The position numbers and the translations under genes are program-made. Below the pieces are notes generated by a model. The model had not been told where the DNA came from and made no database searches. It saw nothing but the letters and a program-made list of their open reading frames with translations. A stretch of DNA of 64,000 bases from Beroe forskalii (Eukaryota > Ctenophora > Nuda > Beroida > Beroidae): positions 434,001 through 498,000 of the forward strand of contig WFMF01000051.1 of NCBI GenBank assembly GCA_011033025.1. Reading direction: 5' to 3'. Every line of letters starts with the position of its first letter. The first letter of the stretch is position 1. This document shows positions 21,776 through 61,249 of the stretch, in pieces.

Positions 21776-22030
21776 GTCCAGGTATCTCTCCCATATAAAC
21801 GGCTCTGAGTGACGTCACAGATCTAAACGTCAATTTTTCTGTATCCTAAACCTAACCATAGCCCTAACCAAAACCCTAACCTTAACCCTAACCCTAACCC
21901 TAACAAATCCTGATCCTAATCCTGACCCTAACCCTTGTCCTTAAAGCGCTAGGTGCGCTTAATTATATTTTTCTGAGTGACGTCATTGTCATAGATAATG
22001 AAGGCTCCTGTTTATATGGGAGACGTACCG
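21776..22030. mobile_element. MITE with telomere-like CCCTAA core (copy A)
   Basis: The inverted ends are GGAGTCCAGGTATCTCTCCC, ATATAAAC at the left, and GTTTATATGGGAGACGTACC, GGAGTCC at the right. Second-level inverted words TGAGTGACGTCA lie inside both ends. The core (about 21840-21945) is degenerate CCTAACCCTAA, with two perfect CCCTAA units in a row. No ORF. Confidence 0.8.
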
Positions 22031-26765: not shown

Positions 26766-29180
26766 GCAATACCAATCATTCCAGGCTATGCTCTGAGAGT
26801 ACAATACCAATCATTCCAAGCTATGCTCTGAGAGTACAATACCAATCATTCCAAGCTATGCTCTGAGAGTACAATACCAATCATTCCAGCTATGCAATGA
26901 AGTACAATACCAATCATTCTCCTAAGCTATGCTCTGGAGTACAATACCAATCATTCCAGGCTATGCTCTGAGTGTACAATACCAATCATTCCAAGCTATG
27001 CTCTGAGTGTACAATACCAATCATTCCAAGCTATGTTCTGAGAGTACAATACCAATCATTACAAGCTATGCTCTGAGAGTACAATACCAATCATTCCAAG
27101 CTATGCTCTGAGAGTACAATACCAATCATTCCAAGCTATGCTCTGAGAGTACAATACCAATCATTCCAAGCTATGCTCTGAGAGTACAATACCAATCATT
27201 CCAGGCTATGCTCTGAGTGTACAATACCAATCATTCCAAGCTATGCTCAGAGAGTACAATACCAATCATTCCAGGCTATGCTCTGAGAGTACAATACCAA
27301 TCATTCCAAGCTATGCTCTGAGAGTACAATACCAATCATTCCAAGCTATGCTCTGAGAGCACAATACCAATCATTCCAAGCTATGCTCTTAGAGTACAAT
27401 ACCAATCATTCCAAGCTACGCTCTGAGAGTACAATACCAATCATTCCAAGCTATGCTCTGAGAGTACATTACCAACCATTCCAAGCTATGCTCTTAGTGT
27501 ACACTGTACAATACCAATCATTACAAGCTATGCTCTGAGAGTACAATACCAATCATTCCAAGCTATGCTCTGAGTGTACAATACCAAGCATTCCAAGTTA
27601 TGCTCTGAGAGTACAATACCAATCATTCCAAGCTATGCTTTGAGAGTACAATACCAATCATTCCAAGCTATGCTCTGAGAGTACAAAACCAATCTGATTG
27701 GTTTTGTAATCATTCCAAGCTATGCTCTGAGAGTACAATACCAATCATTCCAAGCAAGCTATGCTCTGAGAGTACAATACCAATCATTCCAAGCTATGCT
27801 CTGAGAGTACAATACCAATCAATCCAAGCTATGCTCTGAGTGTACAATACCAATCATTCCAAGCTATGCTCTGAGTGTACAATACCAATCATTCCAAGCT
27901 ATGCTCTGAGTGTACAATACCAATCATTCCAAGCTATGCTCTGAGTGTACAATACCAATCATTCCAAGCTATGCTCTGAGAGTACAATAACAATCATTCC
28001 AAGCTATGCTCTGAGTGTACAATACCAATCATTCCAAGCTATGCTCTGAGAGTACAATATGCTCTGAGAGTACAATACCAATCATTCCAAGCTATGCTCT
28101 GAGAGTTCAATACCAATCATCCCAAGCAATGCTCTGAGTGTACAATACCAATCAATCCAAGCTATGCTCTGAGAGTACAATACCAATCATTCTAAGCTAT
28201 GCTCTGAGTGTACAATACCAATCATTCCAAGCTATGCTCTGAGTGTACAATACCAATCATTCCAAGCTATGCTCTGAGTGTACAATACCAATTATTCCAA
28301 GCTATGCTCTTAGTGTACAATACCAATCATTCCAAGCTATGCTCTGAGAGTACAATACCAATCATTCCAAGCTATGCTCTGAGTGTACAATACCAATCAT
28401 TCCAAGCTATGCTCTGAGAGTACAATACCAATCATTCCAAGCTATGCTCTGAGTGTACAATACCAACCATTCCAAGCTATGCTCTGAGAGTACAATACCA
28501 ACCATTCCAAGCTATGCTCTGAGAGTACAATACCAATCATTCCAAGCTATGCTCTGAGTGTAAAATACCAATCATTCCAAGCTATGCTCTGAGAGTACAA
28601 TACCAATCATTCCAAGCTACGCTCTGAGAGTACAATACCAATCATTCCAAGCTATGCTCTGAGAGTACAATACCAATCATTCCAAGCTATGCTCTGAGAG
28701 TACAATACCAACCATTCCAAGCTATGCTCTGAGTGTACAATACCAATCATTCCAGACTATGCTCTGAGTGTACAATACCAATCATTCCAAGCTACGCTCT
28801 GAGTGTACAATACCAATCATTCCAAGCGATGCTCTGAGAGTACAATACCAATCATTCTAAGCTATGCTCTGAGTGTACAATACCAATCATTCCAAGCTAT
28901 GCTCTGAGAGTACAATACCAATCATTCCAAGCTATGCTCTGAGAGTACAATACCAATCATTCCAAGCTATGCTCAGAGAGTACAATACCAATCATTCCAA
29001 GCTATGCTCTGAGTGTACAATACCAATCATTTCAAGCTATGCTCTGAGAGTACAATACCAATCATTCCAAGCTATGCTCTGAGAGTACAATACCAATCAT
29101 TTCAAGCTATGCTCTGAGAGTACAATACCAATCATTCCAAGCTATGCTCTGAGAGTACAATACCAATTATTCCAAGCTAT
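26766..29180. repeat. 35-bp intronic satellite, about 68 copies
   Basis: The unit starts TACAATACCAATCATTCC and ends AAGCTATGCTCTGAG plus AG or TG. The period is 35 bp, with rare insertions (about 27500, 27690 with an internal inverted copy, 27755, 28055). Identity between units is about 95% by eye. Two subtypes alternate irregularly (GAGAGT versus GAGTGT). It fills most of the intron between the last two recognised exons of the minus-strand membrane-protein gene. Confidence 0.95.
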
Positions 29181-36649: not shown

Positions 36650-39118
36650 GTTCGTCACAATATTGAAGTTCATGGAAGTGTCTATGGTCCAGACTCAGTT
36701 GCTGTTTGTATAAAATGTGATATGGGAAAGGCTATGATAGCATGTGTGTATAGGTCACCATCATTGAATAAGAAACAAGACATCAAGTTGCTGAAATTCA
36801 TGAAAAGTATTTTTCAAGAAAAAGGATGTCTTGGAACTTTTTGTTTTGGAGACTTTAACCTTTCTCAAGTTTCCTGGCTATCTGGTACTATATTGGGTGC
36901 TCATGAGAATTCTTGTAGTAATTTGATTCTTATGCAGAAAATGTATTTAGAGTTGATCCATGATTTAGGACTATCATGGTTATTGACATCTGAAGTAACT
37001 CGCCGGAGACTTAATACAATGTCTGGAATAATGAGTGAAAGTTTGCTAGACCAGTTACTTTTAACAGATGAAAGCCTGGTAAATGAATTCAAGTTAGGTC
37101 CTCATCTTGGCAAGAGTGATCATGTAACTCTTTCTACAGAACTCAATGTATCTCACCCAGGAAAGTTGGAAGTAAACAAGGTAACAAAGGAAGGAAGAAG
37201 ATGCTGGTCCAAAGTAACAAGCGAAGAAATTCTCAAATGGTCTCAAGAAATCGACTGGAAGTTTGATCCAACAAAATTAGATGATATGTCTGTTAATGAT
37301 TTGTGGTCAATGATTTGTGTCACTGAAAAATTAAATGTTATTTCTGATAAGGTTCCCCTTCAAAAGCATACAAACAATGTTGATATTAACTACAGTTCAC
37401 CATGGGTTAATAGATCACTAAAAAGAGCAATAAGAAATAAAAATAGGGCTTGGAATGTATTTGATATTACTCCAAATATAAGAAATTGGAATACTGCTTT
37501 AGAAAAACAGCAATTATTTGAAGAATGTGAATGTAAAGCAAGAGTTAAGTATGAAAGAAAGGTTACTAAGGACCTAAAGTATAATTCTCGTGCCTTCTTT
37601 TCATATTTAAGATCGCGCAATAAAGTTAAAGATATTGTGACAAGCCTGGTTAAACCGGATGGTACACGTACAACTAATGATAAGGAGACAGCTGAGTGCT
37701 TAGCTGATACTTTTAGTTCAGTTTTTGTTGAGGAGCCTCATGGTCCTATGCCAAAAGCTTGTTACAATACTGAAAATGTGAAAAAATGTGAGGATATAGT
37801 AATTAGTTTTGCTGAAGTTTATAATGAGTTAGGAAGGCTTGATGTTTTCAAGAGTTTTGGCCCTGACAATGTACATCCCAAACTTTTGAAGGCTCTTGCT
37901 GAAAATGATGATTTTGTTCAAATAATAACTCTGCTTTTTAATAAATGTGCTAATGAAGCAAGAATACCTGACGTTTGGAAGGAAGCTAATGTGGTTGCTC
38001 TCCATAAGAAGGAATCTAGAAATGATCCATCTAATTACAGGCCAGTTTCTTTGACTTGTATTATATCTAAAGTTTATGAGAAATTTCTGAGACAACATAT
38101 TTTGAATTTTATTGAAGATGATATAACTGAGGATCAGCATGGTTTTGTTCCACGTAAATCATGCTTGTCTAACCTTCTAGAGACTGTTGACAATATCATT
38201 GATTTGCTTGAAGAGGGGTATCCTGTAGATGTACTGTACTTTGACTTTATGAAGGCCTTTGATACTGTTCCACACTATAGGCTTCTGATAAAGTTAGAGA
38301 ATTATGGGTTTAGTAGTAAGGTGCTTGCAATTATTCAGGATTTTCTATCAAATAGAACAATGAAGACTATCATAAGGGGAGAATATTCTAGTTCTAAGTT
38401 TGTGAAATCAGGTGTACCACAGGGATCAGTTTTGGGTCCCTTGCTATTTGTACTTTACATTAACGACTTACCTAATGGGATGAAAAATGTCACTAAAATA
38501 TTTGCTGATGATTTAAAAGTTGTTGCAAATGCTGCTAAGTATGATGATACTAATATGGATTTGAAATCACTTGAGAACTGGGAAGAAACTTGGCTTTTGA
38601 AGTTCAACACAGAAAAATGCAAAGTCATGCACATTGAATTGAATGATAATCCTAGAAATGAGTATAAATTAGATAATAATATCCTTGAAGAAACTTGCTT
38701 AGAAAAGGACTTAGGTGTTTTAATGAAAAACGACTTACTCTGGGGAAGTAATATCAATAAGTGTATTAAGGATGCTAATAGAACTATTGCTTGGATAAGT
38801 AGAAATGTTGTTGCAAAAGACATTGATATAATGTTGAGAATCTATAAAGCTCTTATCCGACCAAAGCTTGAGTACTGTGTTCAGCTTTGGTCTCCTGCTG
38901 CTCGCCATGGGAACTGGGGTACCATCTTGGAGCTGGAAGGTGTCCAGCGACGTTTCACCAGACTAATAAATGGCATAGGTACACTTCCCTACAGTGAGCG
39001 GCTTGATAGATTGAATCTCACTACATTGGCAGAACGAAGGATAAGAGGGGATCTAATTGAAACTTTTAAGGTTGTTAGCAATAAAGTTCAGTATTGTCAA
39101 GACTTGTTTAAATGGTAG
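36650..39118 (+). CDS. LINE ORF2: AP endonuclease (partial) and reverse transcriptase
   Basis: The frame is open from about 36632; the first ATG is at 36722, but VRHNIEVHGSVYGPDSVAVC upstream is also LINE sequence, so the ATG is internal. The endonuclease C-terminal half shows VYRSPS, FCFGDFNLS and SDHVTLSTEL (catalytic GDFN and SDH). The RT domain shows SNYRPVSLTCIISKVYEKFL, QHGFVPRKSCLSN, FDFMKAFDTVPH (motif A), SGVPQGSVLGPLLFVLYIND (motif B) and FADDL (about residues 594-598 from 36722, motif C), then the thumb and LEYCVQLWSP. The catalytic Asps are present. Near the end the frame is lost by one base: after LFKW the next frame gives GRSRRNLLTYKHKSVSYSKD. RT family usual length is about 900-1000 residues; the N-terminal endonuclease part and any ORF1 are missing. 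Non-functional copy. Confidence 0.85.
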   Translation, partial: VRHNIEVHGSVYGPDSVAVCIKCDMGKAMIACVYRSPSLNKKQDIKLLKFMKSIFQEKGCLGTFCFGDFNLSQVSWLSGTILGAHENSCSNLILMQKMYLELIHDLGLSWLLTSEVTRRRLNTMSGIMSESLLDQLLLTDESLVNEFKLGPHLGKSDHVTLSTELNVSHPGKLEVNKVTKEGRRCWSKVTSEEILKWSQEIDWKFDPTKLDDMSVNDLWSMICVTEKLNVISDKVPLQKHTNNVDINYSSPWVNRSLKRAIRNKNRAWNVFDITPNIRNWNTALEKQQLFEECECKARVKYERKVTKDLKYNSRAFFSYLRSRNKVKDIVTSLVKPDGTRTTNDKETAECLADTFSSVFVEEPHGPMPKACYNTENVKKCEDIVISFAEVYNELGRLDVFKSFGPDNVHPKLLKALAENDDFVQIITLLFNKCANEARIPDVWKEANVVALHKKESRNDPSNYRPVSLTCIISKVYEKFLRQHILNFIEDDITEDQHGFVPRKSCLSNLLETVDNIIDLLEEGYPVDVLYFDFMKAFDTVPHYRLLIKLENYGFSSKVLAIIQDFLSNRTMKTIIRGEYSSSKFVKSGVPQGSVLGPLLFVLYINDLPNGMKNVTKIFADDLKVVANAAKYDDTNMDLKSLENWEETWLLKFNTEKCKVMHIELNDNPRNEYKLDNNILEETCLEKDLGVLMKNDLLWGSNINKCIKDANRTIAWISRNVVAKDIDIMLRIYKALIRPKLEYCVQLWSPAARHGNWGTILELEGVQRRFTRLINGIGTLPYSERLDRLNLTTLAERRIRGDLIETFKVVSNKVQYCQDLFKW

Positions 39119-39204: not shown

Positions 39205-42096
39205 GACCAAAAATCATTGAGTGTGCCAACTTTTTGATGCTGATGTAAATTTTTTGATGTTTTGAATTTATAAAATGATTCTGATCCAAAAAATCATTTC
39301 ACCTTCAAAAAATTGATGATTTGGAAATAGCAAATAGTCGATTTGCCAAGAAATTTATTTTATGTGAAGAAATCAATTCTTCACAAAAAATGAATGATCT
39401 TGAATTAGGAATTAATTCTGTAAGAATAATTGTGTGCAATGTAAAAAAATTTGTGTTTCGTTATAATAATTTAAATATTTCCCTGTATTTCTTTTCAGCA
39501 CAAAAAGTTGATGAAGTTGCTATTAAAAAGAGATGTACAGCAAAAAATTGTTGCTGTGCAAGATATTTGATGTTTTCTTCTGTAAAGTTATTTTATCTGT
39601 TAGCAAATCATATCATGATCAATATTTTGATGATTTGCATTTAAAATTTGTGTTTTCAGACCAAAAATCATTGAGTGTGCTAACTTTTTAGTGCTGATGT
39701 AAATTTCATGATGTTTTGAATTTATAAAATGATTCTGATCCAAAAAATCATTTCACCATCAAAAAATTGATGATTTGGAATTATAGCAAATAGTTGATTT
39801 GCCAAGAATGTGATTTTTATGTGAAAAAATCAATTCTTCACAAAAAATAAATGATCTTGAATTAGGAAATAATTCTGTTAGGATACTTGTTCATAATGTA
39901 AAAATTTTTGTGTTTTGTTACAATAATTGAACTATTTCCCAGTACAGTATTTATTTTCAGCACAAAAATTTGATGAAGTTGCTATTTAAAAGAGATGTAC
40001 TGCAAAAAATTGTTGCTGTGCAAGATATTTGATGTTTTCTTCTGTAAAGTTATTTTATCTGTTAGCAAATCATATCATGATCAATATTTTGATGATTTGC
40101 ATTTAAAATTTGTGTTTTCAGACCAAAAATCATTGAGTGTGCTAACTTTTTAGTGCTGATGTAAATTTCTTGATGTTTTGAATTTATAAAATGATTCTGA
40201 TCCAAAAAATCATTTCACCTTCAAAAAATTGATGATTTGGAAATAGCAAATAGTTGATTTGCCAAGAATGTGATTTTATGTGAAGAAATAAATTCTTCAC
40301 AAAAAATGAATGATCTTGAATTAGGAATTAATTCTGTTAGGATACTTGTTCATAATGTAAAAATTTTTGTGTTTTGTTACAATAATTGAACTATTTCCCA
40401 GTACAGTATTTATTTTCAGCACAAAATTTGATGAAGTTGCTATTTAAAAGAGATGTACTGCAAAAAATTGTTGCTGTGCAAGATATTTGATGTTTTCTTC
40501 TGTAAAGTTATTTTATCTGTTAGCAAATCATATCATGATCAATATTTTGATGATTTGCATTTAAAATTTGTGTTTTCAGACCAAAAATCATTGAGTGTGC
40601 TAACTTTTTAGTGCTGATGTAAATTTCTTGATGTTTTGAATTTATAAAATTATGTATATGAACTTTCAATTCTGAAACAATGTTTTATTTGTTCAACACT
40701 GTTTTCTAATTCACAAAACATCAATTTATTGTCTTATCAACAGTTATAGGTTTACAGATCATTGATTTAGTAGCATCTCATCAAATTTATAATTCAAAAG
40801 CACTGATTTTCTGGACCATCATAGTTCCTGATCCATGATCTCTGTAGACTGAAACCACAGGGATTTAAAATTTATTAAACGAAAATTATCCCTGGAAAGA
40901 AGAAACCTTGCCATTAAATTTGCAGTATAGCACATCAAAATTCATCAATATTTTGTTATGTATATGAATTTTCAATTCTGGAACAATGTTTTATTTGTTC
41001 AACACTGTTTTCTAATTCACAAAACATCAATTTATTGTCTTATCAACAGTTATAGGTTTACAGATCACTGATTTAGTAGCCTCTCATCAAATTTATAATT
41101 CAAATCCACTGATTTTCTGGACCATCATATTAGTTTTCCTGATCCCTGATCTCTGTAGACTGAAACCACAGGGACCAGATCAACAGATTTAGAAAATTTG
41201 TTGCACAATAATTATTTTTTGCATTGCACTTATTTATTTCCAGAACATATTTGTTTTATGAGTAATATCATCAATTTTTTGGTCAGAATTTATTTCTTGC
41301 CATAACACAAAATCTTGCAGAATTCAACAATTCCTAAAATCAAAATCATCAAATTTTTTCACCATATTTATTTTCGCATTTCAGCTAATTTTTTTGTGTG
41401 GATCATCAAAAAATTTCAAATATCTAATTTCTTATTTTTGAATCATCAAATATTTTCCCTATCACCTAATTCTGCTCGCAAGAAATGATTTTTATATGAA
41501 AATCATCAAGTTTGTGGTTTTGTCAACGATTTGTTAGAACAGCACTAAAGTTTAAATTGAAATCATCAATATATTTGTAGCAGCATCAATTTTTTTGCAA
41601 AACATCAAGTTTCTGAAATTGTTGGCACAAGATCAACAGATTTAGAAAATGAAATCATCAATTTGTTGCACAATAATTATTTTTTGCATTGCACTAATTT
41701 ATTTTCAGAACATATTTTTTTATGAGTAATATCATCAATTTTTTTGCCAGAATTTATTTCTTGCCATAACACAAAATCTTGCAGAATTCAACAATTCCTA
41801 AAATCAAAATCATCAAATTTTTTCACCTTATCTATTGTCGCATTTCTGCTAATTTTTTTGTGTGGATCATCAAAAAATTTCAAATATCTGATTTTTTATT
41901 TTTGAATCATCAAATATTTTCCCTATCACCTAATTCTGCTCGCAAGAAATGATTTTTATATGAAAATCATCAAGTTTGTGGTTTGGTCAACGATTTGTTA
42001 GAACAGCATTGAAGTTTAAATTGAAATCATCAATATTTTTGCAAAACATCAATTTTTTTGCAAAACATCAAGTTTCTGAAATTGTTGGCACAAGCC
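39205..42096. mobile_element. 2.9-kb ATCAAAAAATTGATG repeat element inserted in the LINE
   Basis: The structure is three tandem families in series. A (about 455 bp) occurs three times plus a stub (39207, 39656, 40119, 40578). B (about 300 bp) occurs twice (40650, 40955). C (about 455 bp) occurs twice (41178, 41633). A begins with CATTGAGTGTGCCAAC, and C ends with GTTGGCACA, so the outer ends are inverted (TGTGCCAAC/GTTGGCACA). No ORF beyond about 107 codons. The border with LINE coding sequence at the right (NKDKFNQ) shows that it is an insertion. The class is unknown; it could be a non-autonomous DNA element that grew by internal tandem duplication. Confidence 0.7.
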
Positions 42097-52968: not shown

Positions 52969-53560
52969 TGTTTGAATTGAAAAGAAATCTTTCTTCAAGA
53001 CATCAATCTGCAAGACTTTTCTCCAACTCTGTACTTGAACACCAACATGATCCCTTTAGGTAATGCAATGTTGAAAGCAGCAGGATCTAAGTGAGTCACA
53101 CCAAGATGAGTGGTGTGCAGGCATTTTCAGTCCAATACCTACCTCAGCTTTCAGGGTGTTTAAATGCAAGAGCTTTTTATGAGGTGGCCCCCAGCAGTCA
53201 CCCCCCCCCCCCTCCAGTACCAGGGTATAGCACCGTCAAGTGCAGTGACCACCTGCCTGAATGAAACTGAAATTTTCTCTTTGGTCTTGGTTTGTACTCC
53301 AAGCATGAAGAAATTTTAATTAAGCAAACACTTAGTGAAGAGAAGTAGAGGACCGGTGGAATGGTGGATGGATCCGGGTTATTTGTGTCCTTTTACATTG
53401 CATATTAATGAAATTAATGAGAGTGGCATGCTTCTCCTAAAAATCAGGGTTAAAACATATTTGAATTGAAAAGAAATCTTTCTTCAAGACATCAATCTGC
53501 AAGACTTTTCTCCAACTCCATACTTGAACACCAACATGATCCCTTTAGGTAATGCAATGC
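52969..53560 (+). repeat. about 100-bp direct repeat pair, 488 bp apart
   Basis: TTTGAATTGAAAAGAAATC, TTTCTTCAAGACATCAATCTG...CCCTTTAGGTAATGCAATG is present at 52969-53070 and 53457-53560. A partial third copy (TTTGAATTAAAAAGAAAAC, TTTCTTCAAGACA) lies at 57429, beyond the foldback element. This may be the repeated 5' leader of the LINE at 57.9 kb, interrupted by the foldback insertion. Confidence 0.7.
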
Positions 53561-53630
53561 ATCAGTACAATGTTTCAAATATGAATGTTGTACTGATGCA
53601 ATGATTGTTACATAGTACTTTGCATATATC

Positions 53631-56600
53631 GGCAGATGGGCACCTTGCAATCGGCGCCGATCAGCGCTGATCAGCGCCGACCCACCGCCGATCAGCGCCG
53701 ATCGGCGCTGATCAGCGCTGATCGGCGCTGATCAGCGCTGATCAGCGATTGATCAGCGCTGATCAGCGACACCGCCGATCAGCGCTGATCGGCGCTGATC
53801 AGCGCCGATGGAAAAAATTTTAAATTTCATCGGCGGTCGTCGGCGCTGATCAGCGCTGATCAGCGCCGATCAGCGCTGATCAGCGCCGATCGGCGATCAA
53901 TCAGCGCTGATCGGCGAAATTGGCCGCCGATCAGCGCTGATCAGCGCTGATCAGCGCCTACCAAAACACCAGCATAGGAGCCTTAGAAAACTCCATCGGC
54001 GCTGATCAGCGCTGATCAGCGCCGATCAGCGCTGATCAGCGCTGATCAGCGCCGATCGCTAACTTACTAAATTCGCATTGATATGGACATACGGGTATGT
54101 TTCCCTTAAAAATATAATTCCGGCTGGCCCTGGGATTATAGGCTTATTTAAACAAATATTCAAAAAAGTTAGTATCAAAATAAGCGGCCAGATAGTTTGA
54201 AGTACAATCATACAAACTACGATTTATTAACTTTGAAAGTCTGTACGTATAAGATGCGCCCATATCTCCCAACGCCCTAATTTCGTGAATTAGACGTTGA
54301 CTTTGAGAATATTGGACGCAATAATATTCGAAGTCCTGAGGTCATAATCGAACGTATTTCGTTCATAACTCGGCTCAGGATAGACGTATGATACCTTTAG
54401 TCTTTACTAATTTACTAGACCGCAACATTGTTACGACAGAGATGCGAAGTAACGGCACAGAGACTCCGTTATGACACAGAAACACCGTTACGACACATTA
54501 ACGGCGCAGTAACACTTTTAACTATAATTAGGCACAGTAACAACGTTACGACGCAGTAAAGCAGAAACACCGTTACGTCACAGTGACACAGTTACGACAC
54601 TGTAATGCTGTTTTGACACAGTAATGCCGTTACGACACAGTAACGTTGTTACGAAACAGTAAAGCCGTAACGACACAGTAACAACGTTACGACAGTATCG
54701 TCGTTACGACACAGTAACAACGTTACGACATAGTATCGCCGTTACGACACAGTATCGCCGTTAGGACTCAGTTACGTCGTTACGACTCAATAACGTCGTT
54801 AAAAAACACTAACACCGTAACGACACAGTAACACCGATACGACACAGTAACACCGATACGTCACAGTAACACCATTACGACACAGTAACAGTAACACCGT
54901 TACGACACAGTGTCACCATTACGGCGAAGTAACACCGTTACGACACAGTAACACCGTTACAACACAGTAAATGTTGTTACTTGTTAACCATCAAAAGCGC
55001 TATATCAACGGGCCTTAAAAGTAAAATGGCGTTTTCTGTCGTATTTGTGTTATTTTGGCTTTACGGCTAAATCCTAAATATGCAAACCGCCGATTCGGCG
55101 CCGAATCGGCGCCTTTAAGCGCCTATAATTTTTATTAGGCGCCTATACGGCGCCTTTTGGCGGTACCGCTTTTCGGCGCCTATAGGCGCCGATAGTTTTC
55201 GATCGTCGAATTATCGGCTTCTATAGGCGCCGATAGTTTTCGATCGTCGAACTATCGGCGCCGAAAAGCGCCTCTAAACCGCTTTTCGGCGACATCGGCG
55301 GTTTTCGACCGCCTATAGGCGCCTGTACGGCCATCACCGCCTATAAGTATAAGCGCCTATAGGCGCCTATCGTGATATTTTTCATGATCCACGGCCCGGT
55401 ACGAGTCTGAAGTATCGGCGCCTATATAATAGACGCCGATATTGATCTCTAGCTATCTGTGTTCTTCCTTATTTTTTCAGCGCCTATAGGCGCCGATGAA
55501 TTAAGGCAGCCCTAAACCCTTTAAATTGGGCTTGGGGGGTTAGGGTTAGGGTTTGGGTTAGGGTTTGGGTTGTTAGGGTTTGGGGCCAGGGTTAGGGTTT
55601 GGGGCCTTTGGGCCCAAGGTTTGGGGCCTGGGTTAGGCTTTGGGGTTTTTGGGTTTGGGTTAGGGTTTGGTTTGGGTTTGGGTTAGGGTTAGAGTTAAGG
55701 ATTGCCAGGCCTGGGTTTTTGGCAGTTTGGGTTGGGAGGGTCAGCCCAACCCAACCCTCACCCAAGCCAAAACCCTAACCCAAACCCTAACCTCAAACCC
55801 TAACCCAAACACTTAAACCTAACCCAAACCCTAACCCAAACCCTGAACCCCTAACCCAAAGCCTAAACTAAACCCAAACCCAAACCCTCTCCCAAACCCT
55901 AACTCTAGCCCAATTTAGGAGTTTAGGACTGCTTTAATTCATAGGCGCCTATAGGAGCCTATAGGCGCCTATAGAATTTAGGACGATGAATTCAGTACTT
56001 TGGCTGATAATTGACTCGAGGCTCAGCTAATAAAACTTGTCCTTGCCAATGCAGCACTGCCTTGCGTCTATAGGCGAAAATAAGGGGAATAGAACACAGA
56101 TTGCTAGAGATCAATATCGGTGCCTATAAGCGCCGATTCTTCAGACTCGTACCGGGCCGTGGATCATGAAAAATATCACGATAGGCGCCTATAGGCGCTT
56201 ATAGGCGGTGATGGCCGTACCGGCGCCTATAGACGGTCGAAAACCGCTGATGTCGCCGAAAAGCGTTGTATAGGCGCTTTTCGGCGCCGATAGGCGCCGA
56301 TAGGCGCCGATAATTCGACGATCGAAAACTATCGGCGCCGAAAAGCGGTACCGCCTATAGGCGCCGTTTAGGCGCTTAAAAACAGTTATAGGCGCCGATT
56401 CGGCGCTTTGCGGCGCCGAATCGGCGATTTGCATAAATAGGATTTAGCCGGCTTTACGGTGTAAGTGTGTCGTAACAATGTAACCGAGTCGTTGCACCGT
56501 TACTGATTCGTACTTGTAACGACGACCGACGTTACTGTGAGTGTGTCGTAACGGTGTTACTGTGTCGTAACGGCGTTACTGCGTCGTAATTACGGTGTTG

Positions 56601-57324
56601 CTGTGTCGTAATTATAGAGTTATAGTGTTACTGTGTCGTGACGGTGTGAAGTATCGCAAAAGGGATTGCTGTGTCGCAACAGTGTGACTGTGTCGTGACT
56701 CGTGACTGTGTTACAGGTTACTGTGTCGTAACGGTGTTACTGTGTAGTAACGGTGTTACTATGTCGTACTATTGACATGCATGTTGATGTTGTGATAAAC
56801 CTAGGTGCGAGGATTTGCCATTAAACGTTTCCCAGGGCCAGCCGGAATTATATTTTTATGGGAAACATGCCCACATGTCCATATCAATGCGAATTTAGTA
56901 AGTTAGCGATCGGCGCTGATCAGCGCTGATCGGCGCTGATCAGCGCTGATCAGCGCCGATGGAGTTTTCTAAGGCTCCTATGCAGGTGTTTTGGTAGGCG
57001 CTGATCAGCGCTGATCAGCGCTGATCGGCGGCCAATTTCGCCGATCAGCGCTGATTGATCGCCGATCGGCGCTGATCAGTGCTGATCGGCGCTGATCAGC
57101 GCTGATCAGCGCCGACGACCGCCGATGAAATTTAAAATTTTTTCCATCAGCGCTGATCAGCGCCGATCAGCGCTGATCGGCGGTGTCGCTGATCAGCGCT
57201 GATCAATCGCTGATCAGCGCCGATCAGCGCCGATCAGCGCTGATCAGCGCCGATCGGCGCTGATCGGCGGTGGGTCGGCGCTGATCAGCGCCGATCGGCG
57301 CTGATTGCAAGGTGCCCATCTGCC
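53631..57324. mobile_element. 3.7-kb foldback DNA element with telomere-like centre and 8-bp TSD
   Basis: The perfect 8-bp duplication CATATATC (53623-53630 and 57325-57332) flanks inverted ends GGCAGATGGGCACCTTGCAA / TTGCAAGGTGCCCATCTGCC. The arms are layered and mirrored. (1) 53650-54060 and 56905-57310: GATCAGCGCTGATCAGCGCC satellite. (2) 54060-54160 and 56800-56905: unique sequence (CCGGCTGGCCCTGGGA). (3) 54430-54975 and 56450-56780: CGTTACGACACAGTAACAC repeats. (4) 55085-55500 and 55940-56440: GGCGCCTATAGGCGCC repeats. (5) the centre at 55530-55725 and 55745-55920: TTAGGGTTTGGG on one side and CCCAAACCCTAA on the other. The left arm is longer by about 500 bp. No transposase ORF. An 8-bp duplication fits hAT or P-type transposases; Galileo and FB elements have comparable long satellite arms. 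Confidence 0.9.
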
Positions 57325-57332
57325 CATATATC

Positions 57333-57946
57333 AATATCAGATCGTATTTAAATCATATAGAAAAATAGAAAATCAGACTGTGTTTTTAAATTCCGAAGTG
57401 CTGTGTAACTTACCAATTGACAGTGATTTATTTGAATTAAAAAGAAAACTTTCTTCAAGACAGTGATTTATTATGAGAAATATGTTATATGATCACAAAA
57501 GCGAAATACATTACACTTCATGAGCAGAGATGCATAGGACAATGTTGTGAAGATTAAGCTGCCCATAAAATTGGGATAAAATGAGTTAATAATAAACTGT
57601 CTTGCAATTTACTTGTTGCCATCAAAATGCATAATACCATCAAAGTTTATGAAAATTGGACAATGGGAAGTTCATAAACTTGGTATTTTAAAAATCATTT
57701 AAAATCCTGTGCATCTCTACTACTTGACTAGCATAAGCAACTGTAACGATATTTTTTAATGAATTTTAGAAGTTGTTAGTACCATGCATACATTCTTCCT
57801 TATGTAAGTATGTAGTCTTCCTTATGTATGTATGTAAACTTAACAACACTACTAATTACAATCAAATTTGAGGACCCCGAGCTCAATTCTTTGGACCGGA
57901 CTCATTGTGGCATTGCTGCGTTTTCCTGTGGGATACCAGGAGTGCA
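57333..57946 (+). other. probable 5' UTR of the RLE LINE
   Basis: No ORF of note. Carries the partial TTTCTTCAAGACA repeat at 57429. TATGTAAGTATGTAG and TATGTATGTATGTAA precede the ORF. Confidence 0.4.
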
Positions 57947-60900
57947 ATGTCACAGAGAGGAAAGTTTGAGGAGGAGGGGGAGGAGTCCTCAGTTTATTTA
58001 CAGGATGACATGGCTGATGGCAGAGGGGCTGAGGGCTCCTCCTCCAAAGATACAGACGACGAAGTGTCCTTCAGCCGAAACCCAGTCACGACACCATTCC
58101 GCTCTCCAACACCTCCACGACCACCTCCACGTAAGAGAAGTGCTGGAAGGCCCAGAAAGAGCAAGATCGTTACGAGTACGCCCATATCAGATTTTGTAAC
58201 TGAGGATGTCAACTGTCCGGTTTGTAAATGCGATGTTTCAGATGATTCGAAAGGACTGATGTGCGATACGTGTCAGGTGTGGTTTCATGGCTCATGTTTG
58301 TTGATTTCGGATGAGGAGTATGGGGATTTGAGCAAGTCGGACAACTCCTGGAGTTGTATGGGTTGTCAGGTGGGAGACTCATATCAGTTAAAGTGGGGAA
58401 AACTGAAGGGTGAGAAAGTAATTCAGCAGGTTGTGAAAGCTACCTATATGGAGATAACCAAGTGGAAGAAGAATCTGTTCACGTTGCCCCGAGGGAAAGC
58501 AGGTGTTCACTTCATCAACGAGGTAGCCCGCTTGATATTCTTGTTTACTGACCAGACTGCATGGAGTGAACTGTCATTGTCAATGATTCATGTTTTCATT
58601 CCCCTGATGCTCCAGAAGCCCTCTGCAAACTCAAAGGCGAAGAACAATGCTAAGTTCTTAGCAGAGAGACTTGCTAAGTGGAATGAGGGGAATCTACAGA
58701 GTCTCGTTGATGAAGCCAGGGAAATTCAGGCGCGCCTGTCTCAGTCAACAAGAAGAAAGGAAACCAGTTGTCATGTTGCTTTTACGAGACTCATGCTGCT
58801 AGGGCAAGTGGGGAAAGCTGTCAAGCTAATTGACAACAACAGTGATGTCAAGGGTGTCCATAGCCTTACTCGTCATGTCAAAACGGTTTTGGCGTGTAAA
58901 CACCCTGATGGGAAACCAGCACCCACACAGTTGAAGTTGGAAATCAAGGCCCCAGAACCCCAGCCGGTAATCTTCGAACAAATTGATGCTCAAATGGTCT
59001 ACAAAGTTGCCAAGAATTTGCATGGTTCTGATGGACCCACACTTATTGATGCAGAGGGGTGGAAGCACATTCTGTGCTGTAGATCATATGGGAAAGCATC
59101 TGAAAAGCTGTGTGAAGCCATTGCAGAGCTAGCAAAGTGCATGAGTACAAAACCCGTCAGCCCCACAGCTCTAGAAGAACTCCTGGCTTGTCGACTGATC
59201 CCCCTAGATAAGGGCAATGATAAGCGGGGAGGCATCGGAGTGCGACCTGTCGGTGTTGGGGAGGTGCTGAGGCGAATTGTGGGCAAGTTGGTCATCAATA
59301 CCTTGAAGACTGATATTCAGAATGCTGCTGGTCCACTACAAACTTGTGCAGGTCTGAAGGCTGGGATAGAGGCATCGATCCATGCAACACGGGAGCAATG
59401 GGAGCTGCCAGACACTGAAGGTGTGCTATTGGTGGATGCTGACAACGCGTTCAACACGATCAACAGAGAGCTGGCAGTTCACAACATCAGAGAGCTATGC
59501 CCACCCTTCCATCGGTTTATTGCCAACACTTATCAGAAGCCCGCTATGCTTGTTGTGAGTGATAAGGAGAAGACTGACTACCTGGGTTCACATGAGGGCT
59601 GCACACAGGGTGATGTTGCTGCTATGGCCTTCTACGCACTGGGAGTTAAACCACTGATCACGGAGCTCTCATCATCTGTTAATCCCTCTGCTTGTAAGCA
59701 GATTTGGTATGCTGATGACTCTACTGCTGCTGGGAAACTCATTGAGATCAAGAAGTGGTGGGACTTCCTGTGTGTTAGGGGGCCCCAGTATGGATATCAC
59801 CCCAAACCCTCAAAAACTGTTCTGATTGTGAAGGAGGACTGTCTTCAGATTGCTAAACAGATATTCAAGGGTTGTGGCATCCAGGTTACGAGTAGAGGGG
59901 AGCGTCATCTTGGTGCTGTGTTAGGAACAGAGGAGTTCCGGAAGAGCTATGTGGAGGACAAAGTGGCTAAGTGGGTGAGAGATGTAGAGCAGCTAGCGGA
60001 CATTGGCAAAGACGACCCGCAAGCTGCCTACACGGCCTTCACTAAGGCACTTTGTCACAGATGGACATTCGTTCAGAGGACAATACCTGGGATTTCAGAT
60101 CTGTTGACTCCTCTAGAAGCTGCTATTCGACAGAGCTTTCTTCCAGCAATCATCGGAAGACAAGTTTCTGATTGTGAGAGAGATTTGTTCACATTGCCTG
60201 TGAGACTAGGGGGGCTTGGTATCTCGAATCCGGTTGAAAGTTCAGAATTCGAGTTCCAGGCTTCAGAGAAAATCACAGACAATCTGAGGAAGTTGATCAT
60301 CAATCAGCAGTCAACACTTGATGGATATCAGACTGAGACTGTGGCTAAGATGACTAGTGATTGTTTGAAGGACAAGGAAGTGAGGTTGCTGAGGAAGATA
60401 TCTGCTATTGTATCGGACTCTTCTGGTGGTAAGTTGAAAAGGTCCATCACCTTAGCCCAAGAGAAGGGTGCTGGGGCATGGCTCACGGTTCTTCCTATTG
60501 GTTCTCTTGGGTGGGTGCTGAACAAGGAAGAGTTCAGGGATGCCATCAGACTTAGGTACGGCTGGCAGATTCCCAACATACCAGCATTTTGTGTTTGTGG
60601 AAAGAAGAATTCTGTAGACCACACTTTAATTTGTAAAAATGGTGGCTACTTAATCTTCAGACACAACAGGGTCCGTGACACAAATGCTGCGTTTTTGAGG
60701 GAAGTCTGTCAGGACGTTAAGACTGAACCAGAACTGATCCCAATCGAATCTAGTCAGACAATCCCAGGGAATACGGAAGAGAGGGCACGCCTCGACATTT
60801 CTGCTCGAGGGCTTTGGGGACCTTTCCAGAAGACAATGTTCGATGTCAGGATCTTCCATCCCAATGCCGACTCGTATAAGGATCGGGACATCAAGTCAGT

Positions 60901-61249
60901 ATACACACAACATGAGAACATCAAGAGGAAAGACTACGAACAGCGGGTGATACAGGTGGAGAAGTGTAGCTTCACACCTCTCGTGTACAGCACATCAGGA
61001 GGAATGGCTCCTCAGGCACAGGTCTTTCATAAGAGGATTGCAGAACTCGTAGCAGCGAAAACCAATGAGGAATATCGAGATGTGATCAGTATGATGAGAA
61101 CAAAACTGTCATTTGCACTACTGAAAAGTGTGCTCGTGTCAGTGAGAGGATCTAGGGGCAAATCCTCTCACACGCGCGAAATCCCAATTTCAGAGGTGTC
61201 GTTTAACCTCATCCCAGATGGATTAAGCGGGGATGTTACCTTTTCCTAA
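57947..61249 (+). CDS. RLE-type LINE polyprotein: PHD finger, reverse transcriptase, CCHC and restriction-like endonuclease
   Basis: One uninterrupted frame. The ATG at 57947 (MSQRGKFEEEGEES) gives 1100 residues; an earlier in-frame ATG at 57905 gives 1114 (numbering used here). Residues 104-154 form a complete C4HC3 PHD finger (CPVC, CDTC, HGSC, CMGC). A helical linker follows to about 400. RT: GVRPVGVGEVLRRIVGKLV, VDADNAFNT (Asp511/Asp513), EGCTQGDVAAMAF, WYADDSTAAG (Asp604/Asp605). C-terminus: CVCGKKNSVDHTLIC (C896, C898, H906, C910), RHNRVRD (919-925), RLDI (D964), FDVRIF (D980), the zinc-knuckle plus PD-(D/E)XK-like nuclease of the R2 group. All catalytic residues are present. It would copy its RNA at a chromosomal nick. 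The PHD finger probably reads histone tails for target choice (inference). Confidence 0.88.
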   Translation: MSQRGKFEEEGEESSVYLQDDMADGRGAEGSSSKDTDDEVSFSRNPVTTPFRSPTPPRPPPRKRSAGRPRKSKIVTSTPISDFVTEDVNCPVCKCDVSDDSKGLMCDTCQVWFHGSCLLISDEEYGDLSKSDNSWSCMGCQVGDSYQLKWGKLKGEKVIQQVVKATYMEITKWKKNLFTLPRGKAGVHFINEVARLIFLFTDQTAWSELSLSMIHVFIPLMLQKPSANSKAKNNAKFLAERLAKWNEGNLQSLVDEAREIQARLSQSTRRKETSCHVAFTRLMLLGQVGKAVKLIDNNSDVKGVHSLTRHVKTVLACKHPDGKPAPTQLKLEIKAPEPQPVIFEQIDAQMVYKVAKNLHGSDGPTLIDAEGWKHILCCRSYGKASEKLCEAIAELAKCMSTKPVSPTALEELLACRLIPLDKGNDKRGGIGVRPVGVGEVLRRIVGKLVINTLKTDIQNAAGPLQTCAGLKAGIEASIHATREQWELPDTEGVLLVDADNAFNTINRELAVHNIRELCPPFHRFIANTYQKPAMLVVSDKEKTDYLGSHEGCTQGDVAAMAFYALGVKPLITELSSSVNPSACKQIWYADDSTAAGKLIEIKKWWDFLCVRGPQYGYHPKPSKTVLIVKEDCLQIAKQIFKGCGIQVTSRGERHLGAVLGTEEFRKSYVEDKVAKWVRDVEQLADIGKDDPQAAYTAFTKALCHRWTFVQRTIPGISDLLTPLEAAIRQSFLPAIIGRQVSDCERDLFTLPVRLGGLGISNPVESSEFEFQASEKITDNLRKLIINQQSTLDGYQTETVAKMTSDCLKDKEVRLLRKISAIVSDSSGGKLKRSITLAQEKGAGAWLTVLPIGSLGWVLNKEEFRDAIRLRYGWQIPNIPAFCVCGKKNSVDHTLICKNGGYLIFRHNRVRDTNAAFLREVCQDVKTEPELIPIESSQTIPGNTEERARLDISARGLWGPFQKTMFDVRIFHPNADSYKDRDIKSVYTQHENIKRKDYEQRVIQVEKCSFTPLVYSTSGGMAPQAQVFHKRIAELVAAKTNEEYRDVISMMRTKLSFALLKSVLVSVRGSRGKSSHTREIPISEVSFNLIPDGLSGDVTFS

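Follow-up and report, generated by a model that had tools for sequence, protein, structure and literature searches.

Nested foldback transposons of probable Merlin type in the ctenophore Beroe forskalii, one family with a telomere-like repeat at its apex

Results

The locus

The window analyzed here is a stretch of 64,000 bp of the Beroe forskalii genome that contains a 3,694-bp foldback element. Also in the window are a 2.4-kb array of approximately 70 copies of a 35-bp repeat (26767-29180), a LINE-like, 798-codon open reverse transcriptase frame whose endonuclease match is weak and below the cut-off (36722-39118), and a 462-bp tandem repeat in about three copies (39205-40650). An open frame of 1,114 codons (57905-61249), roughly 580 bp downstream of the foldback element, encodes both a reverse transcriptase domain and a PHD finger. 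The foldback element, termed the outer element below, has the following parts.

53623..53630 (+), left target-site duplication CATATATC, from the letters
53631..57324 (no strand assigned), outer foldback element, 3,694 bp, with exact 20-bp ends GGCAGATGGGCACCTTGCAA
53631..54135 (+), left arm, a 10-bp GATCAGCGCT-type minisatellite followed by a unique spacer
53650-54057 and 56908-57305, the 10-bp GATCAGCGCT-type satellite, mirrored
54570..54970 (+), 19-bp minisatellite of the CCGTTACGACACAGTAATG type, left, from a tandem repeat scan
56542..56768 (-), 19-bp minisatellite, right and inverted, from the same type of scan
56830..57324 (-), right arm, mirror of the left by arm comparison
57325..57332 (+), right target-site duplication CATATATC, from the letters

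The original prediction for this DNA was a single foldback transposon with a perfect 8-bp duplication and exact terminal inverted repeats, and both of these features were confirmed in their coordinates and bases, with CATATATC on either side and ends of 20 bp. The two arms of ~505 bp are 96% identical to one another; positions 53624-54047 are complementary to 56908-57331 at 98%, and 54005-54135 to 56830-56960 at 95%. From each end toward the centre the repeats follow in mirrored order as the 10-bp GATCAGCGCT repeat, the 19-bp repeat, a TATAGGCGCC-type repeat recognized by eye and telomere-like sequence, and the predicted mirroring of three satellites in the same order is thus borne out by the arm and repeat comparisons. 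The outer element is devoid of a long reading frame, its longest stop-free stretch being 84 aa.

Copies of the outer element

Searches were carried out in the 216-Mb assembly of 1,134 contigs. The terminal 18-mer of the outer element has 35 exact matches versus none for its reversed control, and the 20-mer has 161 matches at up to three mismatches versus three for the control; with exact and near matches so far above the reversed controls, the end sequence is not a product of chance. The 8-bp duplication was perfect in 21 of the 24 outer end pairs read, among which one (L076) is poly-A and two rows at locus L048 share a right end. In the other three pairs it matched at seven of eight positions (L039) or was absent (L059 and L060). 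Mismatched pairings of the ends gave two perfect duplications in 552, for which the only possible source is the pairing of the two L048 rows with each other. The duplications are 72% A+T and display no clear motif. The smallest copy (L056) measures 101 bp and the largest reach several kb; the ends of the copies start with GGCAGATG, or in some cases with GGCACATG. The 161 end matches and 21 perfect duplications agree with the earlier view of a mobile foldback element belonging to a multi-copy family.

Positions 1059-8928 of L048 contain two left ends and one common right end, all three with a CTTAAAAT flank, and this common flank suggests a local duplication of the outer element. A search for the empty site of the window copy, using its joined flanks, returned no match spanning the join among the best 40 of 1,243 candidates scored; of the 40 listed matches, two are the locus's own halves and 38 are confined to the initial 74-76 bases. 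The left flank at 53486-53559 is part of a common repeat, found in 38 of the 40 listed matches at 99-100% identity.

A second element nested within the first

A scan of the 64-kb window for GG ends with a perfect 8-bp duplication identified three structures, and none when the duplication was read backwards as a control. One of the three is a second exact boundary, overlooked in the original prediction, that lies inside the outer element at 55065-56449.

55057..55064 (+), left target-site duplication GGCTTTAC, from the scan for GG ends
55065..56449 (no strand assigned), inner nested foldback element, 1,385 bp, with ends GGCTAAATCCTAAATATGCAAACCGC and GGCTAAATCCTATTTATGCAAATCGC
55065..55493 (+), inner left arm of TATAGGCGCC-type repeats, 80% identical to the right arm
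56064..56449 (-), inner right arm, from the arm comparison
56450..56457 (+), right target-site duplication GGCTTTAC, from the scan for GG ends

The longest stop-free stretch in the inner element is likewise only 84 aa. The predicted empty inner site, with one GGCTTTAC, was matched end to end in three outer copies among the matches listed (L041, L042 and L048), with a 19-bp length difference from the prediction. A fourth (L043) is also unfilled at GGCTTTAC, bringing the outer loci with an empty site to four, and six further outer copies have a diverged unfilled site, GGCTTTATAACAG (L052, L053, L055, L057, L077 and L078). The site is filled in six copies, of which the window, L046 and L047 have GGCTTTAC on both sides of the inner element (one end of L047 having a deletion), and L033, L039 and L044 have it visible at one junction only.

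The inner ends with their GGCTTTAC duplication, together with the unfilled site in sister copies, establish that two elements are present and not one, which contradicts the prediction of one element with this entire layout. The telomere-like centre is a property of a second foldback element inserted in the first. A single foldback transposon with a telomere-like loop of its own, the inner boundary of which is a mere satellite border, would account for the mirror symmetry from ends to centre and for the junction common to the six copies. We regard this reading as very improbable, given the perfect 8-bp duplication and inverted ends at this border, which make it one of three such structures in the 64 kb, the unfilled sites in sister copies, which would have to be precise excisions, and the occurrence of the edge of the telomere-like core at 20 loci that lie more than 5 kb from any listed outer end (see below).

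The inner insertion site is identical in all composites, so perhaps one event produced it. Where both outer ends of a filled locus were read (five loci), the outer duplication differed from locus to locus, with one mismatch at L039; most likely, therefore, the inner element inserted once and the composite has since moved as a whole. We infer this course of events in preference to gene conversion. Inner copies of different composites are 76-85% alike where aligned, which is in line with rapid repeat turnover but also compatible with several insertions, or conversion, at the same site.

Dispersal of the inner family

The inner ends (GGCTAAATCC...) have 115 genome matches at up to three mismatches, with none for the control, and at least 18 plus/minus pairs of inner ends within 5 kb were counted from 100 listed ends, composites included. 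A DNA search with the inner element yielded 333 matches (the best 40 of 567 candidates being scored), and at least 13 of those listed, besides the window, span inner base 1 to at least base 847, which is nearly all of the core (448-853). A conserved 40-mer at the edge of the core was then used as a marker.

55892..55931 (-), conserved core edge, at C592:489892-489931 in genome coordinates, found 32 times at up to three mismatches

Its control had no match. Of these 32 positions, 27 point toward a listed inner end no more than 2.5 kb away (~0.001 expected per match); four of the remaining five overlap inner-family DNA matches, and the one at C316 is unplaced. The core edge represents 26 loci, 6 of them beside a listed outer end and 20 farther than 5 kb from any such end, these distance checks being based on 100 listed of the 161 outer ends and 100 listed of the 115 inner ends. 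The inner family is thus an independent dispersed family with the loop as its recurrent property, and a telomere-like repeat is carried by mobile DNA, as originally proposed. The recurrence of the core elsewhere in the genome also led us to reject a private rearrangement of the window copy as the source of its centre. Duplications of the inner family are known from the composites only, all at one site.

The telomere-like core

The core of the inner element in the window consists of two facing tracts.

55512..55736 (+), telomere-like core, G-rich strand, a mixture of TTAGGG and TTTGGG
55747..55917 (-), telomere-like core, C-rich strand, a mixture of CCCTAA and CCCAAA

The predicted orientation, with TTAGGG facing CCCTAA, was correct; in place of a clean telomere array we found a degenerate mixture, with 14 TTAGGG and 20 TTTGGG in the inner element of the window on both strands. 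The same mixture is present in all six sequences counted, and perfect TTAGGG units follow one another at most twice in the window copy and four times in L047. There are two YTAGGGTTR sites in the window copy, both strands counted, this motif being one that we take to be the vertebrate TRF site. With two such sites, the window copy is a poor candidate for recruiting telomere proteins.

Of 16 outer copies between 2.7 and 4.4 kb long, 7 contain telomere-like tracts by a simple density test, and the two short outer copies are without them. Tracts are likewise present in the 7-kb copy L059, which was kept out of this count; they derive in part from a third type of element described below. The expectation that every outer copy contains the tract was accordingly abandoned.

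Genome-wide, two telomere-like 21-mers have 3,257 and 2,166 overlapping matches versus 112 and 100 for controls. At least 13 loci have six or more perfect TTAGGG units (in the listed part of 366 matches). Three of these runs, at C66, C172 and C258, are at most 750 bp away from an inner end, and that at C228 overlaps inner-family DNA; the other nine are without an inner-family link in the lists. At C492:397640-398401 there is a long array that could be a genuine telomere.

A small separate element in the window also has a telomere-like core.

21781..22029 (no strand assigned), 249-bp element with GGTATCTCTCCC... ends, a perfect 8-bp duplication GGAGTCCA and a CCCTAA-type core

It is GG-ended, with ends GGTATCTCTCCCATATAAAC and GGTACGTCTCCCATATAAAC, and contains six CCCTAA/TTAGGG hexamers. 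Relatives of its ends are mirrored inside the outer copies L059, L060 and L076, where CCCTAA blocks are found toward the left end and TTAGGG blocks toward the right, an order that is reversed in the inner family. The flanks of these relatives are inverted and not duplicated, indicating that they are part of the host arms rather than fresh insertions.

These observations bear on the possibility that the core is a captured telomere, in which a broken foldback intermediate would have been capped by telomerase, two such ends would have fused, and the fused palindrome would have given rise to the inner family. In every element with both core edges listed (C284, C336, C571 and C826, there twice), and in the window, the G-rich strand runs centreward, as in a head-to-head fusion, and the pure runs near or in inner-family DNA at the four loci named above are in keeping with such an origin. 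We nevertheless consider it unlikely: the orientation is inherited, so that all copies together amount to a single event whose chance is one in two; all six sequences counted mix TTAGGG with TTTGGG in the core; the third element type is oppositely oriented; and TTAGGG is only presumed to be the host telomere repeat. Similarly doubtful is a broader version, whereby GG-ended, 8-bp-duplicating transposons gained telomeric repeat more than once, the inner family by telomerase capping and head-to-head fusion, and now serve as a mobile source of interstitial TTAGGG with some pure runs able to bind telomere proteins. The reading we prefer is that the telomere-like repeat is probably cargo with no telomere role.

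Transposases and superfamily assignment

A profile search with PF12762 (DDE_Tnp_IS1595) gave 35 genome matches, and 12 of these loci were read (L061-L070, L072 and L075). Four of the 12 have GGCAG ends on both sides, flanked by a perfect 8-bp duplication.

C171:120483-123218 (L062 with L071), duplication CAATTTTC, an uninterrupted 308-residue frame that matches PF12762 at 70.9 bits
L067, 594-1892, duplication CAAAATGT, frame pieces matching PF12762 at 24.8 bits, below the 27-bit cut-off
L068, 250-2185, duplication AAATTTCC, frame pieces matching PF12762
L072, 114-2059, duplication AGGGATCG, frame pieces matching PF12762

The last three have inverted arms of ~130-200 bp. No bounded element with a duplication was seen at the other eight loci: five have a single GGCAG-type end each (L061, L065, L066, L070 and L075), L064 has its PF12762 gene between inverted, repeat-rich arms with no duplication seen, and no bounded element was found on reading L063 and L069. 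Several Merlin families with differing GGCAG-type ends are represented (L062, L067, L068, L070 and L072); inverted arms occur in L067, L068, L070 and L072 and are visibly minisatellite in L067 and L070. Two short elements with GGCAGTATCC ends (L073 and L074) lack a perfect 8-bp duplication.

Merlin elements are defined by 5'-GG ends and 8- or 9-bp duplications, sometimes with tandem repeats inside, according to the passages that treat them in PMC8101967. The outer family has 5'-GG terminal inverted repeats and 8-bp duplications (21 of 24 perfect), and the four transposase-bearing elements of this genome share its GGCAG start and its perfect 8-bp duplications; for this reason the outer family is most likely a non-autonomous Merlin, a link that rests on end motif, duplication length and arm style. 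The inner family, with 5'-GG ends and an 8-bp duplication known from composites at one site, appears to follow only the general Merlin rules.

Neither the outer GGCAGATG ends nor the inner GGCTAAATCC ends were found on an element that carries a transposase. No PF12762 match, out of 35, occurs within 10 kb of any of the 100 outer ends listed; one match (C122:244460) is 1.8 kb from one of the 100 inner ends listed (C122:242669). This region, C122:242669-244783, has an inner-family end before a Merlin transposase match and is a candidate autonomous partner. The two longest outer-type copies, L059 and L060, were considered as autonomous partners and rejected, as they have no long frames and no 8-bp duplication. 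KDZ/Zisupton transposase gave no genome matches, and the control genomes were likewise silent.

The main rival to the Merlin assignment is that the nested elements have ends recognized by a MULE transposase, as FB, Tm1 and probably Tetris do, the likeness of GGCAG to Merlin being coincidence. MULE transposase has 46 matches in the genome, two of which (C296 and C390) lie 1-2.5 kb from GGCAGTATCC ends, and foldbacks with tandem-repeat arms are, in the relevant passages of PMC4079207 and PMC3169594, mostly Mutator with 8-10-bp duplications. However, it is the PF12762 profile that matches the four GGCAG-ended transposase elements with exact 8-bp duplications, and no MULE match, out of 46, is closer than 10 kb to any of the listed ends (100 outer and 100 inner). 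We judge a MULE origin to be quite unlikely and retain Merlin as the probable source of transposase.

Discussion

Most likely, the structure in the window is a nested pair of non-autonomous cut-and-paste DNA transposons, both moved in trans, with the outer one Merlin-like and the telomere-like repeat as cargo. An inner foldback with telomere-like repeat at the apex of its palindrome would have inserted once at the GGCTTTAC site of an outer element, whose ends would then have copied the composite to new places as one unit. A Merlin (IS1595-like DDE) transposase is the probable agent moving both families in trans. Slippage and inverted-duplication repair are general behaviors of long palindromes, and the arms would most likely have grown through these processes acting on hairpin-forming DNA.

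Long inverted tandem-repeat arms, the structural hallmark of foldback elements, are found here. Sea-urchin TU elements resemble the elements described here in their 8-bp duplications and in foldback arms whose outer domain consists of short tandem repeats. P-type ends are CA-type, unlike the ends here, which start with GG. The description of Merlin in PMC8101967 is similar in 5'-GG ends, 8-bp duplications, internal tandem repeats and arms of up to hundreds of bp, and transposase-bearing relatives are present in this genome; the window elements differ from it in having no transposase, arms made of several minisatellites in series, a telomere-like core and a nested, composite arrangement. Tetris of Drosophila virilis is likewise a non-autonomous foldback with tandem-repeat arms, 8-10-bp duplications and a role as a source of satellite DNA; its authors suggest Mutator, and a telomere-like core does not appear in the passages describing it (PMC4079207). 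The Tm1 Mutator/Foldback elements of root-knot nematodes, which include transposase-bearing, MITE-like and other groups, also have composite repeat arms and, in some copies, nested inverted-repeat insertions, but in the sections concerned their duplications are mostly 9 bp and the authors place them with Mutator (PMC3169594). Galileo of the P superfamily has foldback-like long tandem-repeat arms and is an example of the foldback shape outside Mutator; unlike the elements here, it has, in the part of the source that describes it, 7-8-bp duplications, a GTATTAC preference and a P-type transposase (PMC4168063). The Oxytricha TBE elements are also mobile DNA with a telomere-like repeat, although in the passages on them they are Tc1/mariner elements with (G4T4)4 in the terminal inverted repeats and an ANT duplication (PMC12242761), whereas the repeat here is at the centre of a palindrome and the ends carry GATCAGCGCT or GGCGCC repeats. 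A literature search of open-licence PMC articles, by titles and abstract starts, returned no foldback or Merlin element with a telomere-like core.

Conclusions

The elements described here are non-autonomous foldbacks that are probably Merlin, one family of which has a telomere-like repeat at its apex. Interstitial telomere repeats in primates and rodents are reported to have been placed by break repair (PMC7215372). In B. forskalii an interstitial telomere-like repeat is instead carried by a dispersed DNA transposon family, as seen from the unfilled site, the nesting and the copies outside the composite. The results also point to a foldback shape in Merlin, beyond Mutator or P, and the system makes telomerase testable as a route by which telomere repeat may enter foldback DNA.
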